DNA from: Aphelenchoides besseyi | Lineage: Eukaryota > Nematoda > Chromadorea > Rhabditida > Aphelenchoididae | Length of the DNA stretch: 64,000 bases | Assembly (NCBI GenBank): GCA_024699855.1 | Contig: JAMPIQ010000002.1 | Coordinates: forward strand, 11,098,001 to 11,162,000 | Reading direction: 5' to 3' | In this document: positions 1,388 through 54,567 of the stretch, piece after piece | Numbering within the stretch: the stretch's first letter is position 1 | Layout of the letters: every line of letters begins with the position of its first letter | Notes under the pieces: generated by a model | Database searches by the model: none | Told to the model about the DNA's origin: nothing | What the model saw: the letters and a program-made list of their open reading frames with translations, nothing else | Translations under genes and position numbers: made by a program

Positions 1388-3414
1388 GGATCACGGCGAA
1401 CAAGATTGAGTTGAGTATTGATTAGCGTTTTATCATTTATCAACATAACGAGTCCCAGTCATCTGAAAACAATTCATATCACTCTCATTGAAGTTTAGTC
1501 GCGTTGTCGAAAATGCTACAATCGAGTTATCTAAGCGCTCAATATTGATATTGAAGACCAACATAACCAAAACCACAGAAATTGATCGTTGTGAACATCG
1601 GGATCTGTAGAATTTGAATACCAAAAAAAGAAGTCTGCCGATAGCAGAAATCGGATGGCATTTTTGTCTGCAAGAGCATAACTTTCCTTTCATACTCGTA
1701 AACGAGAGTTCCGCTGTTTTGTTTGGTGACAGAACATTTATGAGACAACGAAAACATAAAAGCGTGTAAAATTTCAAATGGTCAAAACGTGTTGGGCTTT
1801 GCGAGCAGTTCGTCTCTCATTTCGCTCAATGAACGGCCATTTCAAAGTCATGGGATTGCCGCTGTATGAACTGAAACGTCCAAATCGCCGTCTGCAACAT
1901 CGAACAGCCGCTTTTTACAAACGAACACAGAAACATGGCCCTGTGTTGTATTGCCATTAATGGTCCAGTTTTAATTGTGTGCTCGAAACAGAACGTAACA
2001 ATGAAGTCGACGTGGAAAGAAAATCCCACGAAGTCCCGGAAACATGCTTCGACGCACTTTTCATAATATTGTCTTTATGTAATACGAAAACAGACATTAG
2101 TGTTTCCATTACGAAGTGTTTCTTCGAGCAAAATAATAAAAAGGAGATTGATAGTCAACGGAACTTCCGACAAGAACGGCAATTTCGCTAAGACCGAGCG
2201 GGATCATGACGAAGAGATGGAAAACGATAGCTCATACGTCGAACTTAGTTTCCCGCCAAACTTCTCGAAAACGACGATCGTTTGAGCGCTTTGGGTGTTG
2301 AAAAGTCGAGATAATTAAAAGCGCTGCAAAACCCTCGAGAAATTCTTCAATTTAAGCCATCGGCCTTAATTCCATAACGAATTTTGTTCATTCGACGAAT
2401 TTCACCAAAAAACGACTTTTAAGTCCGCTTCCTTGGAGTGCGGAAGAAGTTGAAGCCGTCGAGTTGACTCACACTGGAAACACTATCCTAAAGAAGTCGG
2501 GTGAAAGTAAAAGATGCTCGAAAATTGGCCAAATTAGAAGCGAAAGTTGGCGTCATCGTTTGAACGGATCGATTCCATTTGCGGTGGTTGGTGTGAATTC
2601 GCCGACAACCTCATCAGACGAAACTTCGAGAACAACAAAAAGAACCCCAATCTCTCTTTGTTACAGTGAGAAAATCCGAAGCTAAGACTTCGGAGCGCGG
2701 GCAAGTTTCCGTCCTCTTCCATCAGGAACTAACTGAATTACTAAGAAGCTCAGTTGCGAAGTCCAACAAATTCAATTGATTGTCGCGCAGTTTTCTGATG
2801 AGCAGAAGATTGTCGTTGAAGACTTAAACATTACGATTGTTATTTATAGCACTTTTTTCAAATTTAACTGCATTTCAATATGCTGTTAATCACCACGTTC
2901 ACTCGACTGCAACAGCGAACTACGCAAAAACCTTAAACAAACCATGTGACCAATCGCAGAATTAAACTTGGGCGCCGACAAGCGCAAACCGCTGGTATGA
3001 GCAATGATAAATCAAATGGTGTCATTTACAGCGCTATTTTGGCTATCAATCGTCTTGTCTATGGAGAACAAACAGTCAGCACACATTTTTCGTGATCTTC
3101 GGCCGATCGTTTCGTCTTCACGTTCATGGTTTGGCGACAGTTCTTTTTATCAATTTAACCGGCTATTTTATCACATATACTTCTGATTTTGTTATCAGAC
3201 GGCTTCCATAGTTTGTTTATTTTCTTCTCGTACGTTCAACCTCCCGCGTGAACCATTCTTGGGTCGATTTCAAAAAGAGGACAAAAACTTAAGTTTGTTT
3301 CGTCAATTTACATCAAAACATGCGAGTATTTCTTTCGTGCGCTCTTCTGAAAGTACCATTCATTATTTGTGTATTTAGTCGCCATCAAATAGCCCGCTTC
3401 CGTTAAACTGTACG
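1388..3414. other. Divergent intergenic region, no gene assigned
   Basis: This stretch separates the start of the FRMPD4-like gene (leftward) from the start of DPYD (rightward), so it should hold both promoters. It has short ORFs on both strands, for example a 114-codon leftward ORF at 1433-1777, but none shows a family motif or a convincing splice chain. I found no tRNA-like cloverleaf or tandem repeat. Confidence 0.4.
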
Positions 3415-7180
<3,766 letters not shown>

Positions 7181-9230
7181 TCTCTGGTTATTTCAATTGC
7201 TTAGAAGAAGGTTTGTAGTTCGTTTAGAGTCATTCGTTTGCTTCTCCAAAAATGATATAATAAAATTTTGGTACATCAAATTTTAATCGCTCAGAAAACT
7301 TTTCTGCTCCCAACAACCGAACGTGCGAAGATCAAGAATTCTGGTGCTAAGAAGATTTGACCAGGTCTTATCCGTTATAATTCTTTTAAACGCCTTTGAA
7401 CTGCTATGGAATCTGATCGTTAAAACGAAGAAGTTAATGAAACTGAGGACTAGAATTCAAAGAGTATCGATTAGAAGAAAGTGATGAATTTCCTTTCAAT
7501 GACGTTTTTCATTACACTCCCTTCATACTCATGGACCCGAACGCTCGTTTGTGACTGCCAACACATTAAACGGTGCAAATTGGTTCATAAAATATGGACA
7601 TTCAAACTTCACATTTGAACCGAAATGAGCAAACCGAAGTGGCAAAAGCGAGAGGACATGACTTTGAGCCCGAGTTGTTGCATTTTCTTTTCCGCTTCAT
7701 GCGCTATCATTCAGCGGACAAACGGGGCCAAAGCAGTGGCAAAAAGAAACTGCGAACGAAGCCCAACGGCACTGCCGACATCGAAGAAGGTTTTCCACAA
7801 CGGGCCATTTGAAAAGTTCTTTTTTGCTCTCATTCTTGCAAGACAAACCGTTTCTTCGCACCGGCTCCGGTTTGTTCTTCATTTCCAGTGTTTTCAAACA
7901 TTTCGCTCCAAATTCGTAGTCTTTTTAATCGAGAAACGGAACACGCAATTTTCACAATGAACTTTCTGTCACATTTGTTTGCAATTTGACACTACAACGC
8001 GAATTTGTTTACAATGTTGTTGGTTTGAAGCACAGGAATGGACTTGTATTCAAATCAAGTTCAACGATTCTTTTTTGGCACATTATTCACGCTTTAATTG
8101 GCAATTAATCGTTAATGTTTAATGGTGAATGTGATTATCGTCGAAGAAGTTGCACGTTCCAATACACGGTTGTTTGAACTGCAAACTTTTGGTTAACATT
8201 ACCCAACCGATTTACATTGTTGTTTGCTCAAGTTTGCTACCGGTTTGTCCGTCTGTGGAAACTTAAACTCATTGGGTTTGCAATCCGCAGTTGCCGTTTT
8301 GTGTCGAACTGTCGTTTCCAGCAATCACGAACATTATTGTTGTTACCAGGTGGTTATGGCTTGTTTTTTATATCGCAAAAAAGTAATTAGAATTCTGGTG
8401 TTCGTACACATCCACTTCTATAATTGATATGCAGTCAAAAAGGCTCGAGATTCTTTTCGGTATTCAGGTTTTGAAATTAGAAAACTCGGAGTTCCAGTAA
8501 GAAACGCGATTTCTGTTTAACAGAGAAGTCGAACATTTCTACGTTGTACGAGGGCACGAAAATAGATGCCCGTATGGAAATTATATTGAAGCACGTGCGG
8601 TTGTGTCGGAATCGTGATTTCGTTTTATTTCGCTTCCTTAATCTTAACTTGTGTTTTGGGTTCTCTTTTGACATCACAATTCAAAACTCGGAATCAAGAT
8701 CCTATGGAACGTCATTGGGTAGTCTTTAGAGCTACAACTCTCGTTTAGCAGCACCCCTTCGTTTTTATCGCCACGTTAACATATTTGAGCGAAAGTGAAT
8801 GTGTAGAAGGCATAAACGAGATGGTTTGCCTGTTTTGATATTTATGGATAACTATTTCAATTTCGCTTTGAACCGCCCGTCGCGTTCACACCATTGATGC
8901 CATTTTTTGCGAAGCGGCGCGTGAACTTTGTTTGCTTTTCACTTTTTATTCTTCGGCTTTTTTGTGATGGATAACATGTTTCGGAGCTTAAACCGTTTTC
9001 ACATATTCGCTTTACGTTGTATACACAGTCAAAGAATGTCTCTCCGTTTATCAATCGTTTTCATCGAGGGTTGTATCTGCCGTTCAACTATTCGATTCTT
9101 TTTAATCAAACGTAATGAACGAACATTGTTTTCAATTGGAACAATCATGATGTTCCTCTTTTTCTTAACCAATTGCCTTATTAATCTTTGCGCGATTGCT
9201 CAGAATTCTCAACTAACGTATGTGTTTAAG
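7181..9230. other. DPYD 3' region and intergenic DNA
   Basis: This holds the DPYD 3' UTR, then DNA with short overlapping ORFs (for example 7594-7812 and 7625-7960, plus strand) that show no family motif or splice context. An open frame from 8928 runs into the next gene's ATG at 9231. Its first 100 codons are hydrophobic and end in a CTAAC plus TTTAAG splice-acceptor-like context, so I treat it as 5' UTR or intron. Confidence 0.4.
7259..7264 (+). terminator. Polyadenylation signal AATAAA for DPYD
   Basis: An AATAAA hexamer lies 79 bases beyond the DPYD stop codon, in an AT-rich stretch and in the right orientation. It is the first exact hexamer after the stop that I found. Confidence 0.6.
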
Positions 9231-47803: not shown

Positions 47804-49425
47804 AACGTTTTCGCATATTGACACGTCTATTTTAATCAAATTTCCTGGACCGTTGTGACATACAAATTGAACAACATTTCATTCAATTCTTCTTCCTGAT
47901 TGTGAACTGAAATTCGAATTATTACGTCAGTCGTATGGTTGATTTGTCTCGCGTTTGCAGGCATATGGCCGTTAGTGAGTGAACTCTTGATGTCGGAATC
48001 CAACGGTTTTGCAAATCATGAAAACGGTATGAATAACAGGAACGTTTTTAACGATGTTCCTCGTCATGAAAAGTCCGTTGCAGGGAAGCTCTCCGTTCGA
48101 CGCCACCGCAAATTCTATGTTTGCTGGAGTCACTTGAGATGTTCTTTTGGTTCTTCTCGGATGTCCGTTCGTCACAGAATATGGTCAGTGGCAATGACGT
48201 TTTTTTATTCATCTTAGATTGTGGTTCTGTTAAAACAACTGAACGTTGAACTTGTCCGCATATTTTCCTCTGCTTGGCAGAAAAAACAGTTTCGTGAACT
48301 TGAAGAAAGAACGTGATGATGATGAATAACCAACAATATTGCTCGCTTTATCGCATGTTCGTTTTCGTCTTCTATTCAACTGTTGGAATATGACGCACGA
48401 CCTTCAATAGTGGATCATTGATGCATATCCATGCGATCAAAATCCAAAGAAGCTGCGTAAATTCGTGAGCTCATTGCTAATAGTGAAGTCAAATGGAATG
48501 CGGAACAGTTAACCTCGGTTACAGTACAATTATTCGTTCATCATTGAAAAGCAAATTTGAAAGTCCATGAAACTTTTCGAAGGTTCTATTACAACAAGAT
48601 TTGGAAAACGACTTTTGAATACTTTGCTTCATCTCTGCGCCAAACAGAAATCGTCAGACACGCGACGTCATATTCTCGCGCAATATGCTATAATCTTTTT
48701 CAAATCTATTCTTAGTACCACTGTCGACAGCAAGTGAGCATCGTAGTTCGTTTGCTACAGTCGAATTGCATGTTAAACACGAAGATCGATATTTGATCTC
48801 GTAAGCCATGTACATTCGTAGCTTTTTTTTCTGTTTTGCACGCCATTAAAGCGTAGTCGCATGTTCAGGTATTTAGAGAACAATAAGTTTCAGAAGTGTC
48901 TTTTAAGTTATCGTACTTTATTCCTAAACAGTCGTCGTATGTTGTGATGTTGATCGACGTTAAACTTGAACGTCTTTAACTACGTAATAACAGAGAACAA
49001 TGCACTTTTTGATCAATAATTTGCCATTAACATAGACAAAATGTGTGACTTGTTTGCGTAGTTGAAACTATTCACCTGTAAACTCGAAAACAGAACTAAA
49101 ACACCGCGCAGCAAAGCACCTGTTGATTAGGAAAGTACGTAAATACAGCAATGTTGTCTTTTAGGTTGTCATCAATTATTCAGTTATGACATCAAATCTG
49201 TTGATCTATTTCGATTACTTTTACGATGCAAGCGGTTTACAAAAAGAGAAACTACGTCAAAAGCTTGCGCATAGTAAACACATCACTAATTCAACAATTA
49301 ACTCTACGCAGAGCAACTTCTACAGATTGGACATGAAAAAAATTTCAAAGGTAATTAGTGTCATTCCGCATTAAGAAACCGTATTGGAAGATTAATACGA
49401 ATGCCGTTACTACGATTATCATCTT
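47804..49425. other. Intergenic DNA left of the inverted-repeat element
   Basis: About 1.6 kb with only short ORFs (47939-48217 and 49186-49374, plus). It ends at CATCTT (49420-49425), the left copy of the target-site duplication. No gene is supported. Confidence 0.4.
49420..49425. repeat. Left target-site duplication CATCTT
   Basis: Directly abuts the outer end of the left inverted-repeat arm, in direct orientation with 54562-54567. Confidence 0.7.
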
Positions 49426-51259
49426 AGTAGTATGTAGTGCCAGAAGAGTCACAAAATCAATAAAAATCCCATAAATCATTCTGCGCTTAAACCTGTCACT
49501 TTTTGCTTATATCCATCAAAAATCGTCAGGTAGAGCCCTATATAAGGATTTTTTGTACAAGAAATACAGTAACCGTACAAAAGTAACTTCCCGATCTCGC
49601 GGAGAAATCATTTATTATCACTCTCGGGGAGGAACCACCTGTCAAAAACGACTTCACGACCGAGTGCCACACCGACAAGACCGCAAACCGTGAAAATTCA
49701 TTATCGAAATCGACCTTTCTTTTGTTCAAATGTTCATTCTTGCAATCAACAATCATTTACGACTGAATGTCAGCCATTTTCACTCACTCTTTTTTCCTTC
49801 ATTTGCTCTTGAATCCCGTTCAGTAGATCAAAACATTGGTTTTCGTTTAGTATTACGTTTTCAATTGGGGCTGAAAGGGAGTTGAACTTGATGATTGTAG
49901 TGTATTCGAAGGTTGTTATTAGCGAGCATTTAGGCAATCCTCCTGTAGTGAAATCGATGTCGTTCTTCATCCGCGACTGTTTTCAAGAATTCTCAATCGT
50001 TGAATGTCACAGCATCTAACCACTTGTCTTCAATCTCTAATCATTCAAAAAACCATCACACCACTCCAAGATTCTGCATTCAATAGTTCAAACAGAAGCT
50101 ACTCCAGTTTTGCCATCGTATATTCTAGAATGCGATCACCGCGAGTTTATAAGCAATGTCCAACGATGGTCATTCGTGTTGTTTGGGCGCAAAGAGAAAT
50201 GCAAATGGCGTGCCAACCAGCTTCGCGCAGTAAAAGACGGAGCTACCTCGTTTCGTGATCGGCGCCATCGTCGTTCAGATGGTCAGTTGCCGTTTTTCTT
50301 CATGACCAAGCAACCGGTTGCCATCTTTTTCTCCGCTTTGTTCTAATTTCCGTCGTTTTGATTTCGTTTGCCCAACGATTTCTCCTGCTTGCTTAATCTG
50401 AAGTCTACAGTCACCTATCCAGTGGTCATCCGATGCTCTAATCTTGATTGCCTCATGTCGCTTTTCTCCGCGTTGGTCAAGAATTGCGTTCACTGTTGTT
50501 GTGTTGTTGCAGCCTGTTGTTATGCTTTCTTCCCATTTCCTACGTATTTCAATTTGTTGTTTTTGAGTTTGTTAAGTCAAGTTTGAGCTTGTGAATAAAT
50601 CTACGACTGTCGTTGTCATTATTCCTTTTGTTAACAGAGATCGAAGAAAATTTGGAGACTTCGATTTGAATAAATCTTAGGAATCTTGTAAGAGAGTGTT
50701 ATCCACTTATTGGCTTGGAGTTTCGTGATCTTGTCTAGCGAACTGAACGCCGCCGTTCCACTTTCCCACGACAACGAGTAGGTGGCCAAAATGATTCCAA
50801 TCGCATTGAAGATCGACGCGACGCTCGGAACAAACTAAAAGCCAAAAAGAAAAGCAATTTCAAAGACTTCGAACCTACAAACCTGAAAACCGAATGTACG
50901 ACCATAGAAACAAGAAGCATCCAAGCTCTCGATTCCCTTCAGCATCCCACGATACGACGAGTAGTCGCAGTGAAGCGACGGGAACAACGAGTTCTCGTCC
51001 AATGTTTCGGTCCAAAGCACGACCGAAATCCACTTCCCGGTGTGTGTTCGTCGTAATCGCATTTTCGTGCAGCCTCTTGCATCTTCAGCATCAAGTCTGA
51101 AATCAGCGATCTTTCGAATGGACGATGTCAACAGTTGTTACCGTTGATCATTTCACTTGTTGCGTCGATTTCGCTGCAACATTCGGCGATTCGCTGATAG
51201 TACATGGATTTGGTTCGATTCACGTCGAAATAGACGTGATTCTCGTCGGCCAGCGAAAC
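49426..51259 (+). repeat. Left terminal inverted repeat arm
   Basis: Pairs with the right arm as a reverse complement from 49426 inward to about 51250. It lacks 242 bases present in the right arm, with the junction at 51022-51024. Several A/T runs differ in length from the right arm (for example 5 versus 9, 4 versus 7 and 6 versus 8 As). Confidence 0.9.
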
Positions 51260-51510
51260 CTCATGAAGTCATTTCGAACACAAGGAAATCAGATTACCAG
51301 TTTGAGCAAACGGAAAACTCCATCACGCTCCACGAGAATTTGCGGTTCGACTTCAACTTTGCGCGAACGACCGTTGGAATGTCGTTGCGATGAGTTTCCG
51401 TTTGCATCGAGTCGGCTGGAACACACAAACGTATGATAAACCATCGGATGTTCATGACGCGCCATTTCATTTCGTTTCAACGGCTTCGAATATCGAACAA
51501 CAATCAGCAA
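50631..51510 (-). pseudogene. Hormone-sensitive lipase N-terminal domain fragment, left copy, internally deleted
   Basis: Hormone-sensitive lipase (LIPE, hosl-1 in worms) hydrolyses stored acylglycerols. This copy keeps only pieces of its N-terminal regulatory domain. Leftward from 51510: an exon ending LLKL at 51298, an exon 51259-51142 (ADENHVYFDVNRTKSMYYQR), an exon from 51096 reading CDYDEHTPGSGFR, then a junction at 51024 that skips 242 bases and shifts the frame before LDASCFYGRTFGFQ and FVPSVASIFNAIGI. Introns of about 40-45 bases are kept, so the copy came from DNA rather than mRNA. The catalytic alpha/beta-hydrolase domain is absent and the frame ends at 50631. Confidence 0.7.
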
Positions 51511-51519
51511 GCATCTTTG

Positions 51520-52163
51520 TTTATTGTTTTAAAAACATAATAAAAAGTTCGCGTTGCTCAAACAATCACCAACGAAGATGAAATAGAATGAACGTCCAAC
51601 TTAAATTCGCTTACCATGTTGAAATCCCGAAATTTATCTAGCAAACTTTTCGGCAGCTCGCTGTTCATGTGTTCCTTGTCGTTGTTGGATTGTAACGAAC
51701 GTTCCACCTCGCCGAGGAGTTGGAGTATTTCTTGCAAAACGGCTTTGTTGAATTCGACGTTAAGTTTGCGCAGTTCATCGGGTCGAGATTGACATTCGTC
51801 CATTCTGCGGAAAAGTCAGAATACATGGGAAGATTACGTCGATGGAAGCGGAGCAATTCGCTTTCGAATTCATTGGTCGGAAAGATTTCAACCATAAACA
51901 AGTTGAAAACGTCGGCGAATCGTATGCCTTCCACTAAACACGAAATTTCATTACGAATTAGAATGTGGAACTAACTTTCAGAAAGACCTGCGACGCCGGT
52001 GTCTCGGACGTTGCTGTTCATTTTGGTGGCGAGTTTGGGATGAAACAGAGGCTGCAAATAAAAAGTTCACAATATAACACGTAAGTCGGAGTTTTCGCGC
52101 CAACACGTAGAGGTGATCTTCAAGAAACAACCGGAAATGAGAAGTTGGCGCAGATAAGAACAA
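51520..52163 (-). CDS. Unidentified gene in the spacer of the inverted-repeat element
   Basis: Leftward coding signal. A possible exon ends near 52082 (LRVGAKTPTY). Exon 52051-51976 reads FHPKLATKMNSNVRDTGVA. An exon starting at 51933 reads GIRFADVFNLFMVEIFP, then TNEFESELLRFHR. An open frame 51803-51558 with a helical, coiled-coil-like sequence (DELRKLNVEFNKAVLQEIL) ends at TGA. An AATAAA on the same strand lies at 51525-51520. The joint between the third and fourth blocks needs a phase change I cannot explain with a normal intron. I do not recognise the family. This unique DNA is not repeated in the arms. Confidence 0.45.
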
Positions 52164-52486
52164 AAACTAAGTGAGGGATACAATGGAATTGTTCTCACAC
52201 TATTTAAGCGCCTTGTAAACAATGCCGACAAACACGCGAAGAAAACGAACGAAGACTCGATCGGTGGTCTTTCCGCGGTTCAAAGTCTTCGGTCGACACT
52301 TCGAAAGTCGACGACCGCCTCACAAAACTGAGTTGAACCGAACGCTTGTAAGATTGAGCGAAAAAAACGCCTCCAATCACTAGACACACCAAGAGGTGTG
52401 AAAAAGTTGTACAAAAGTGGCCGTTGCTTCTACTGCGTCTAATACAATGCGAAATCAGTGGTTTCCATTCGCCATTCACACACTCG

Positions 52487-53348
52487 GCCTCCGAAGAATC
52501 ACGTTTACTTCCACGTGAATCGAACCGAATCCATGTACTATCAGCGAATCACCGAATGTTGCAGCGAAATCGACGCGACAAGCGAAATGATCAACGGTAA
52601 CAACTGTTGACATCGTCCATTCGAAAGATCGCTGATTTCAGACTTGATGCTGAAGATGCAAGAGGCTGCACGAAAATGCGATTACGACGAACACACACCG
52701 GGAAGTGGATTTCGGTAATCGAAAGCTTCAGCAATGATTCCCATTCCGTTTGTTCAGGTCACTGATTTGCGTTTGCGATATGGTCGCCTTGCATTTGGTG
52801 GCTGAATTGAAGAAGTACTCTGAAACGTGTAGTAGTCTTGTTCCAATCGACGACCGTCTGCAAAGACCTGGAATATTATGTTGCGATTCTTCGCTCTTTC
52901 ATTTCAACAGGTCAGTTCGAAAAGAGCGACAGCGAAATGTCAAGTCGTTGGTTCAGGTCGTGCTTTGGACCGAAACATTGGACGAGAACTCGTTGTTCCC
53001 GTCGCTTCACTGCGACTACTCGTCGTATCGTGGGATGCTGAAGGGAATCGAGAGCTTGGATGCTTCTTGTTTCTATGGTCGTACATTCGGTTTTCAGGTT
53101 TGTAGGTTCGAAGTCTTTGAAATTGCTTTTCTTTTTGGCTTTTAGTTTGTTCCGAGCGTCGCGTCGATCTTCAATGCGATTGGAATCATTTTGGCCACCT
53201 ACTCGTTGTCGTGGGAAAGTGGAACGGCGGCGTTCAGTTCGCTAGACAAGATCACGAAACTCCAAGCCAATAAGTGGATAACACTCTCTTACAAGATTCC
53301 TAAGATTTATTCAAATCGAAGTCTCCAAATTTTCTTCGATCTCTGTTA
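52487..53348 (+). pseudogene. Hormone-sensitive lipase N-terminal domain fragment, right copy
   Basis: It mirrors the left copy on the other strand. Order: NHVYFHVNRTESMYYQR, a 45-base intron, DYDEHTPGSGFR, an intron at 52715-52759, SLICVCDMVALHLVAELKKY, a frame break, CKDLEYYVAILRSFI, another phase change, then LDASCFYGRTFGFQ, an intron, and FVPSVASIFNAIGI to a stop at 53348. Residue spacing matches the human N-domain (GYRSLVHT, AELEAYL, GCFYGRCLGFQF) with no gap at the first break, so I read it as a frameshift rather than an intron. It lacks the 5' exon of the left copy and all of the catalytic domain. A functional truncated protein is unlikely but not excluded. Confidence 0.7.
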
Positions 53349-53484
53349 ACAAAAGGAATAATGACAACGACAGTCGTAGATTTATTCACAAGCTCAAACT
53401 TGACTTAACAAACTCAAACAACAAATTGAAATACGTAGGAAATGGGAAGAAAGCATAACAACAGGCTGCAACAACACAACAACA

Positions 53485-53739
53485 GTGAACGCAATTCTTG
53501 ACCAACGCGGAGAAAAGCGACATGAGGCAATCAAGATTAGAGCATCGGATGACCACTGGATAGGTGACTGTAGACTTCAGATTAAGCAAGCAGGAGAAAT
53601 CGTTGGGCAAACGAAATCAAAACGACGGAAATTAGAACAAAGCGGAGAAAAAGATGGCAACCGGTTGCTTGGTCATGAAGAAAAAAAAACGGCAACTGAC
53701 CATCTGAACGACGATGGCGCCGATCACGAAACGAGGTAG
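53485..53739 (+). CDS. Arm-encoded hypothetical ORF (mirror copy at 50493-50275, minus strand)
   Basis: A hydrophilic frame of 84 codons (RGEKRHEAIKIRASDD, QTKSKRRKLEQSGEKD). The mirror copy in the left arm shares the first 66 residues, then leaves the frame because an A-run is 5 rather than 9 long. The opposite strand also has an open frame here (SYILECDHREFISNVQRW, FVLFGRKEKCKWRANQ) in both arms, in which one A-run difference (4 versus 7) is a whole codon. I cannot say which strand, if either, is coding. Confidence 0.25.
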   Translation: MNAILDQRGEKRHEAIKIRASDDHWIGDCRLQIKQAGEIVGQTKSKRRKLEQSGEKDGNRLLGHEEKKTATDHLNDDGADHETR

Positions 53740-54016
53740 CTCCGTCTTTTTTTACTGCGCGAAGCTGGTTGGCACGCCATTTGCATTTCTCTTTGCGCCC
53801 AAACAACACGAATGACCATCGTTGGACATTGCTTATAAACTCGCGGTGATCGCATTCTAGAATATACGATGGCAAAACTGGAGTAGCTTCTGTTTGAACT
53901 ATTGAATGCAGAATCTTGGAGTGGTGTGATGGTTTTTTTTGAATGATTAGAGATTGAAGACAAGTGGTTAGATGCTGTGACATTCAACGATTGAGAATTC
54001 TTGAAAACAGTCGCGG

Positions 54017-54449
54017 ATGAAGAACGACATCGATTTCACTACAGGAGGATTGCCTAAATGCTCGCTAATAACAACCTTCGAATACACTACAATCATCAAG
54101 TTCAACTCCCTTTCAGCCCCAATTGAAAACGTAATACTAAACGAAAACCAATGTTTTGATCTACTGAACGGGATTCAAGAGCAAATGAAGGAAAAAAGAG
54201 TGAGTGAAAATGGCTGACATTCAGTCGTAAATGATTGTTGATTGCAAGAATGAACATTTGAACAAAAGAAAGGTCGATTTCGATAATGAATTTTCACGGT
54301 TTGCGGTCTTGTCGGTGTGGCACTCGGTCGTGAAGTCGTTTTTGACAGGTGGTTCCTCCCCGAGAGTGATAATAAATGATTTCTCCGCGAGATCGGGAAG
54401 TTACTTTTGTACGGTTACTGTATTTCTTGTACAAAAAATCCTTATATAG
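54017..54449 (+). CDS. Arm-encoded hypothetical ORFs near the TIR end (mirror copies at 49970-49538, minus strand)
   Basis: Two short frames, 54017-54217 (MKNDIDFTTGGLPKCSLI, then NENQCFDLLNGIQEQMK) and 54231-54449, are preserved residue for residue in the other arm. The first ends in a donor-like gtgagt after KEKR. No domain is recognised. Identity between arms does not by itself show selection, because the arms are nearly identical throughout. Confidence 0.25.
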
Positions 54450-54561
54450 GGCTCTACCTGACGATTTTTGATGGATATAAGCAAAAAGTGACAGGTTTAA
54501 GCGCAGAATGATTTATGGGATTTTTATTGATTTTGTGACTCTTCTGGCACTACATACTACT

Positions 54562-54567
54562 CATCTT
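54562..54567. repeat. Right target-site duplication CATCTT
   Basis: Directly abuts the outer end of the right arm and equals the six bases at 49420-49425. Removing the element and one copy predicts an intact pre-insertion site. Confidence 0.7.

Follow-up and report, generated by a model that had tools for sequence, protein, structure and literature searches.

A 64,000-nucleotide stretch of the Aphelenchoides besseyi genome (contig JAMPIQ010000002.1, positions 11,098,001 to 11,162,000; hereafter the window) raises the question of which kind of transposon is bounded by two long, mirrored arms and how these arms came to carry pieces of a gene for hormone-sensitive lipase (HSL). The element concerned, here termed the window element, spans 5,136 bp and ends in AGTAGT...ACTACT (Table 1). 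It is interpreted as a non-autonomous foldback derivative of a Maverick/Polinton that is mobilised in trans by full elements, a reading to which a probability of roughly 0.87 is assigned.

Ends, arms and relatives of the window element

The outer ends of the window element are perfect inverted copies of each other, beginning AGTAGTATGTAGTG, and CATCTT abuts each of them in identical orientation (6/6 bases), as the initial annotation of this locus had described for the AG..CT inverted ends, the AGTAGT tip and the flanking hexamer. The 5.1-kb size and the arms of about 2 kb given there also hold, but the proposed span (49420..54567) takes in both CATCTT copies. For any one element, the probability of an exact 6-bp duplication by chance is about 1/4,096. 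The arm alignment pairs 1,818 bp on the left with 2,067 bp on the right, the latter in inverse direction. Substitutions are absent from the outer 1,594 aligned bases of the arms, which differ there by four changes in length of 2-4 bases each (near 50047, 50232, 50293 and 50560), by eye located in A/T runs. A stretch of 242 bp follows in the right arm only, inward of it 222 bp contain seven differing positions, and the arms enclose an asymmetric middle of about 1.25 kb. Inverted repeats of at least 60 bp occur in the whole window as six pairs, all of them parts of these two arms, and the structure thus exceeds chance. At curated scores, no Rfam family was detected in the window, nor was any tandem repeat at score 80. 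A paralogous empty site was sought with 400 bp of the left flank, which matched only itself in the genome.

Searches for relatives covered the 47.4-Mb assembly (31 contigs), and 14 control genomes served as controls for the profile searches. A genome search with the end sequence had been set beforehand as a test of Maverick identity. The first 200 bases of the window element match 29 sites, among them both ends of the window element itself, in 45 aligned pieces and at several sites only in part; one of the elements recovered, element E, is 16,982 bp long and has PolB and retroviral-like integrase domains. The 22-base tip was found at 15 sites with up to three mismatches, in comparison to a single site for the reversed control pattern. 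Both ends are in hand for six elements, the window element and A to E, and exact 6-bp duplications flank five of these six, all five different in sequence; in A, five of the six bases agree. The short elements A, window and B are located on one contig, with starts at C2:11061780, 11147426 and 11391366, within about 335 kb.

Element E carries terminal inverted repeats (TIRs) of 1,067 bp at 98.8% identity. The Pfam scan of E covered 10 of 35 listed frames of at least 110 aa, flanks included, and returned DNA_pol_B_2 (two frames), rve, Chromo and Pox_A32, all over the cut-off; one match was below its cut-off and four frames gave none. Pox_A32 (23.6 bits, cut-off 22.8) represents the packaging-type ATPase. 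A Fox-1_C match in E was below the cut-off and was taken as chance. Genome-wide, DNA_pol_B_2 has 25 matches and none in the control genomes. For the PolB open reading frame (ORF) of E, 4272 word-sharing candidates were retrieved from the protein database, none at an E-value of 0.001 or better. A major capsid ORF and a protease ORF were proposed by eye. In the PDB, no match of the candidate capsid ORF was better than an E-value of 0.14, and the candidate protease ORF gave a weak match to the cysteine protease S273R (E-value 0.012). Copies of the candidate capsid ORF at 90% identity or more are found at seven places, all within 7.5 kb of an end-sequence match (distances read by hand, some of the end matches being partial); a further seven places hold copies at 31-50% identity, none within 10 kb of an end match. 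Given the ends and domains of E and the capsid-ORF copies near such ends, a Maverick family with these ends is present in this genome. The Maverick-type identity proposed in the initial annotation therefore gains support from the recurring ends, the PolB and integrase domains of the 17-kb element E and the 6-bp duplication. Its remark that the usual Maverick genes are missing also agrees with the data, as no Maverick gene domain was detected by Pfam in 10 scanned of the 49 frames of at least 60 aa in the window element, and the genome-wide profile search placed no DNA_pol_B_2 match inside it.

Lipase and AP-2 sequences as cargo

Both arms of the window element include exon pieces of HSL (Table 1), of which only N-terminal pieces are recognised, and no lipase is therefore expected from this element. 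The cargo of the window element and its longer relatives is, as judged by sequence, host-type DNA, consisting of HSL exon pieces and, in the longer relatives, AP-2. Since an intron is retained, the cargo probably entered the element in the form of DNA. Element D contains TF_AP-2 in two frames (45.0 and 49.8 bits, cut-off 23.4; 10 of 25 listed frames scanned) and Abhydrolase_3 in two frames at 24.5 and 16.0 bits, below the cut-off of 25. Additional matches in D to MCAfunc, Jiraiya and DUF4819 were below their cut-offs and were taken as chance. Over the 3 kb searched, element C is 97% identical to D, and TF_AP-2 matches are present in C too. No DNA similarity of D's interior to E was found at an E-value of 1e-8. 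In the window element itself, a DNase_NucA_NucB match at 51101-51433 (+; 20.3 bits, cut-off 23.8) runs antisense to HSL exon sequence and was taken as chance.

Genome-wide, HSL_N has 30 matches, 24 of them over the cut-off, and TF_AP-2 has 29, all over the cut-off; the control genomes gave no match to either. With 3 kb of D as query, a DNA search yielded 68 aligned pieces, with 40 of 45 candidates scored. Clustering by eye of these profile and DNA searches places HSL or AP-2 sequence at about 33 genomic places, nine of which adjoin a match to the element ends (window, C, D, F, G, H, I, J and K); the remaining places may partly be ordinary host genes. At locus L055, the catalytic exon of HSL is open, with a chain named hormone-sensitive lipase as its best PDB match (E-value 5.4e-30); its HSL_N matches contain stops, for which introns are a possible explanation. 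The reading frame surrounding the HGGG region of the lipase is, by eye, broken in L056 and L059, probably in D as well, and L059 appears frameshifted, likewise by eye.

The cargo components are also found joined and mirrored. In L013 (C1:15216185-15225818), one open frame at 5983-6252 (-) continues from an AP-2 segment straight into an HSL-like one (WNLSEIPPPKLFCPTM...), which indicates that the cargo is fused; the HSL part of this frame was judged by eye against L055. Element K (L021, L054 and L057; C1:762065 to about 775272) has arms that mirror each other over at least 4.2 kb at 98-99% identity, with an HSL copy in each arm, AP-2 between them and the right tip gone. A layout of HSL, AP-2 and HSL like that of K was also observed at C1:873-881k and on contig C28.

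Formation of the inverted arms and competing explanations

Practically all of the window element can be aligned to D (rounded coverage 1.0). In the order of D, it comprises the left end, internal pieces with deletions and, in place of D's right end, the inverted segment D 2071-1. The claim that the arms have grown to include cargo is supported by this breakpoint map. The inverted join of D 8471 to D 2071 is common to the window element, B and K, and element I shows a different join, D 8628 to D 2222. The form with two left ends is probably derived, because D's right end resembles the end of E over about 520 bp (two pieces), whereas the similarity of the window-type left end to E is confined to short parts (bases 1-157, plus 290-344 against one E end). 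In the window element as in B, the two arms are 100% identical across a common region of about 1.25 kb, gaps uncounted, and those within element I are 99.6% identical. Between the window element and B, however, arm identity is 96.6%. As these two elements have a common join yet differ by 3.4%, their arms must, on this comparison, have been homogenised after separation.

The favoured explanation can be outlined as follows. An ancestor like the 9-10-kb elements C and D, with HSL-like and AP-2 frames between such ends, would have undergone internal deletion and replacement of its right end by the inverted left end at short homology, giving rise to a palindromic form. This replacement may have occurred through template switching during protein-primed replication or through ectopic repair. 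The resulting element would keep the terminal sequences on which a Maverick integrase would act, integrase and polymerase would come in trans from full-length relatives of the E kind, and each insertion would produce a 6-bp duplication. The palindromic form would thus spread by insertion, and both arms of each copy would keep copying each other. For arm growth, a replication template switch and ectopic repair are held to be about equally probable, with a slight lean to replication.

The strongest competing account concerns arm growth alone and attributes it to DNA repair, in which a broken right end was filled by copying the inverted left end (ectopic gene conversion) and Maverick replication played no part. 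It is a plausible account, though somewhat short of even odds. The ends are modular, as seen in element A, which combines a window-like left arm (99.4%) with a right end resembling that of J (96.6% over 970 bp), and both A and B lie on the contig of the window element, about 86 kb and 244 kb away from it, start to start. A precedent can be found in Galileo, which, in the cited part of its description, recruits internal sequence into its TIRs and has the longest TIRs in non-autonomous copies (PMC3573991); the cited part names no repair mechanism, and repair is put forward here as a putative one. Yet one and the same breakpoint at three loci (window, B and K) points to an inverted form that moved once made, and this spread is left unexplained by repair alone.

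Replication could also have played a larger role. By analogy to defective adenovirus genomes, the foldback forms might be palindromic defective Maverick genomes that arise when a virus-like, linear element replicates by protein priming, although this is considered rather unlikely. Here, an end switch at short homology would make a mirror molecule, one arm would be recopied from the other in every round, and the product would be integrated, perhaps even packaged, with the help of full elements. If true, host lipase and AP-2 gene pieces would ride as passengers; if the forms were also transcribed, long hairpin RNAs could match other genomic HSL copies. Exact 22-mers shared with the window element number 286 in L056, 112 in L059 and none in L055 or L058. 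By this measure L055 would not be a target of hairpin RNA. L056 and L059 may be either cargo or host genes.

Several observations weigh against the interpretation as a Maverick derivative mobilised in trans. Over about 178 bp, E and the window element agree in their ends to only about 85%, so the helper need not be E itself. E's PolB is spread over several frames, which may reflect introns or damage, and neither its candidate capsid nor its candidate protease ORF has a Pfam match. No second end was located in F, G, H, I and J, where the search was partial, nor in L and M, and K is without its right tip. Regarding the ancestor, Pfam gave no HSL_N match in the frame of D that spans the N-terminal lipase region, and the genome-wide search scored HSL_N in D at 23.5 bits, below the cut-off. 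In the arm tree, the window arms group with those of A, which is without the inverted arm, and not with breakpoint-sharing B; together with the J-like right end of A, this suggests that ends seem to have been exchanged between elements, blurring their history. Finally, the 2-4 base length differences between the arms could be residual (long-read) sequencing errors.

It is very improbable that the window element is merely Maverick-like and descends from a different foldback-type or P-superfamily DNA transposon. The first Galileo copies, consisting of long TIRs only, were mistaken for Foldback-like elements, as the cited part of that work recounts (PMC3573991). However, the ends and 6-bp duplications are common to an element with PolB and integrase domains, and the (AGT)2//(ACT)2 motif combined with 6-bp duplications is as in vertebrate Mavericks, according to the cited section on those elements (PMC8097293). 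The scan of E returned an rve integrase, while no search aimed at a P-type transposase was made; given the 6-bp duplications and the rve/PolB relative, a different superfamily is unlikely. An assembly artefact (a hairpin read or a mis-joined palindrome) is just as remote: outer arms with short length changes and no substitutions are what mis-polished copies might show, but the mirror stops exactly at the transposon tips with unlike flanks and a duplication abutting both ends, which speaks against a hairpin read, the arms differ inside by the 242-bp stretch and seven substitutions, B and K carry the identical breakpoint at other loci, and chance or artefact is thus rejected by the duplications, the arm differences and the inverted-repeat search.

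For the favoured interpretation, three consequences can be highlighted. Host-type HSL and AP-2 pieces would move between Maverick ends in elements in which no Maverick gene was found. The record of breakpoints and arm homogenisation offers a basis to test the mode of replication and end exchange of Mavericks. In addition, gene annotation should take into account that some HSL and AP-2 copies in this genome are transposon cargo.

Table 1. Coordinates of the window element, its parts and its relatives with both ends; positions without a prefix refer to the window, and C1 to C3 are contigs of the assembly.
Feature	Position	Strand	Basis
Left copy of target-site duplication CATCTT	49420..49425		sequence
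Right copy of target-site duplication CATCTT	54562..54567		sequence
Probable non-autonomous Maverick-type foldback element, whole, AGTAGT...ACTACT ends	49426..54561		sequence and genome searches
Left arm; positions 1-1609, then 1849 onward, of the 9-kb relative D (L013:301-9334)	49426..51243	+	alignment
Right arm, left end inverted (D 2071-1)	52495..54561	-	alignment
Asymmetric middle; pieces of D 2563-3088, 6851-7279 and 8390-8471, intervening regions gone	51244..52494		alignment to D
Deletion point inside direct repeat of about 110 bp, twice in D (2978-3087, 6851-6959)	52000..52107		alignment
Breakpoint of the inverted duplication, linking D 8471 to D 2071 at near-homology of about 10 bp; also in B and K	52495..52504		alignment
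HSL_N coding fragment, right arm; open frame extends to 53142	52738..53097	+	Pfam PF06350, E-value 4e-7, 29.8 bits, cut-off 25
Probable 48-bp intron (GT...AG) separating two HSL exon pieces	53098..53145	+	sequence; L055 frame breaks at matching place (by eye)
Next HSL exon piece, open frame FVPSVASIFNAIG...	53146..53346	+	like L055 frame 1770-2183 (by eye); alone no Pfam match
Left-arm mirror copy of HSL pieces, without 242-bp stretch	50631..51137	-	frames and arm alignment
Element A	C2:11061780-11066199		both ends; duplication agrees 5/6 bases
Element B	C2:11391366-11396377		both ends; duplication AGCAAG exact
Element C	C1:10388795-10398581		both ends; duplication GCTGCC exact
Element D	C1:15216485-15225518		both ends; duplication GTTTCC exact
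Element E	C3:6528613-6545594		both ends; duplication CAAAGC exact

Elsewhere in the window, ORFs at 5373-7177 (+) contain PF01180 (dihydroorotate-dehydrogenase-type) and Fer4_21 (4Fe-4S dicluster) domains and would, by these domains, represent a dihydropyrimidine dehydrogenase gene. The genome further holds 18 SL1-like RNA matches, none of which reaches the curated score (44.2 bits at best, in comparison to 75); the control genomes hold none, and these matches suggest a nematode. Three contigs account for about 45.9 of the 47.4 Mb, which fits the 2n=6 listed for Aphelenchoides besseyi (PMC11555361).

Comparison with known systems

Vertebrate Mavericks present the (AGT)2//(ACT)2 end motif and 6-bp duplications, and the intact ones have TIRs of 46-1,447 bp, as stated in the cited part of their description (PMC8097293). 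For Polintons, PolB, rve integrase and packaging-type ATPase domains are among those listed in the cited passage (PMC4028283). The window element shares the end motif and the 6-bp duplications, and E shares PolB, rve and the packaging-type ATPase. The window element differs in its length of 5.1 kb, in arms of about 2 kb and in that no Maverick gene was found in it.

The target-site duplication of Galileo is 7 bp, in comparison to 6 bp here. The likeness to this Drosophila transposon, so far as its cited description extends, lies in non-autonomous copies with the longest TIRs and in internal sequence recruited into them (PMC3573991); the difference is that the window-element ends are common to an element with an rve integrase. 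A second parallel can be drawn to a virus.

Defective adenovirus genomes carry inverted left-end duplications. They thereby resemble the foldback forms as protein-primed linear DNA in which one end is replaced by the inverted other, and differ in that the forms described here are integrated in an animal genome, their replication being putative.

The closest precedent for the cargo comes from the work of S. Widen on nematode Mavericks, which, in the cited part, carry gene families such as wosp proteases and krma kinases (PMC10680173). Cargo Mavericks of nematodes (PMC10680173) and lengthened TIRs in another superfamily (PMC3573991) are thus already known, within what the cited parts of these sources cover. 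A literature search that named HSL, not AP-2, found no report of either as cargo of Mavericks. What appears new are foldback Maverick derivatives with HSL and AP-2 pieces, a common breakpoint and homogenised arms, a combination not found in the literature searched. In relation to the cargo Mavericks as the cited part portrays them, nematode gene families as cargo are the shared feature, whereas the cargo here consists of HSL and AP-2 pieces, often with broken frames, in elements in which no Maverick gene was found.

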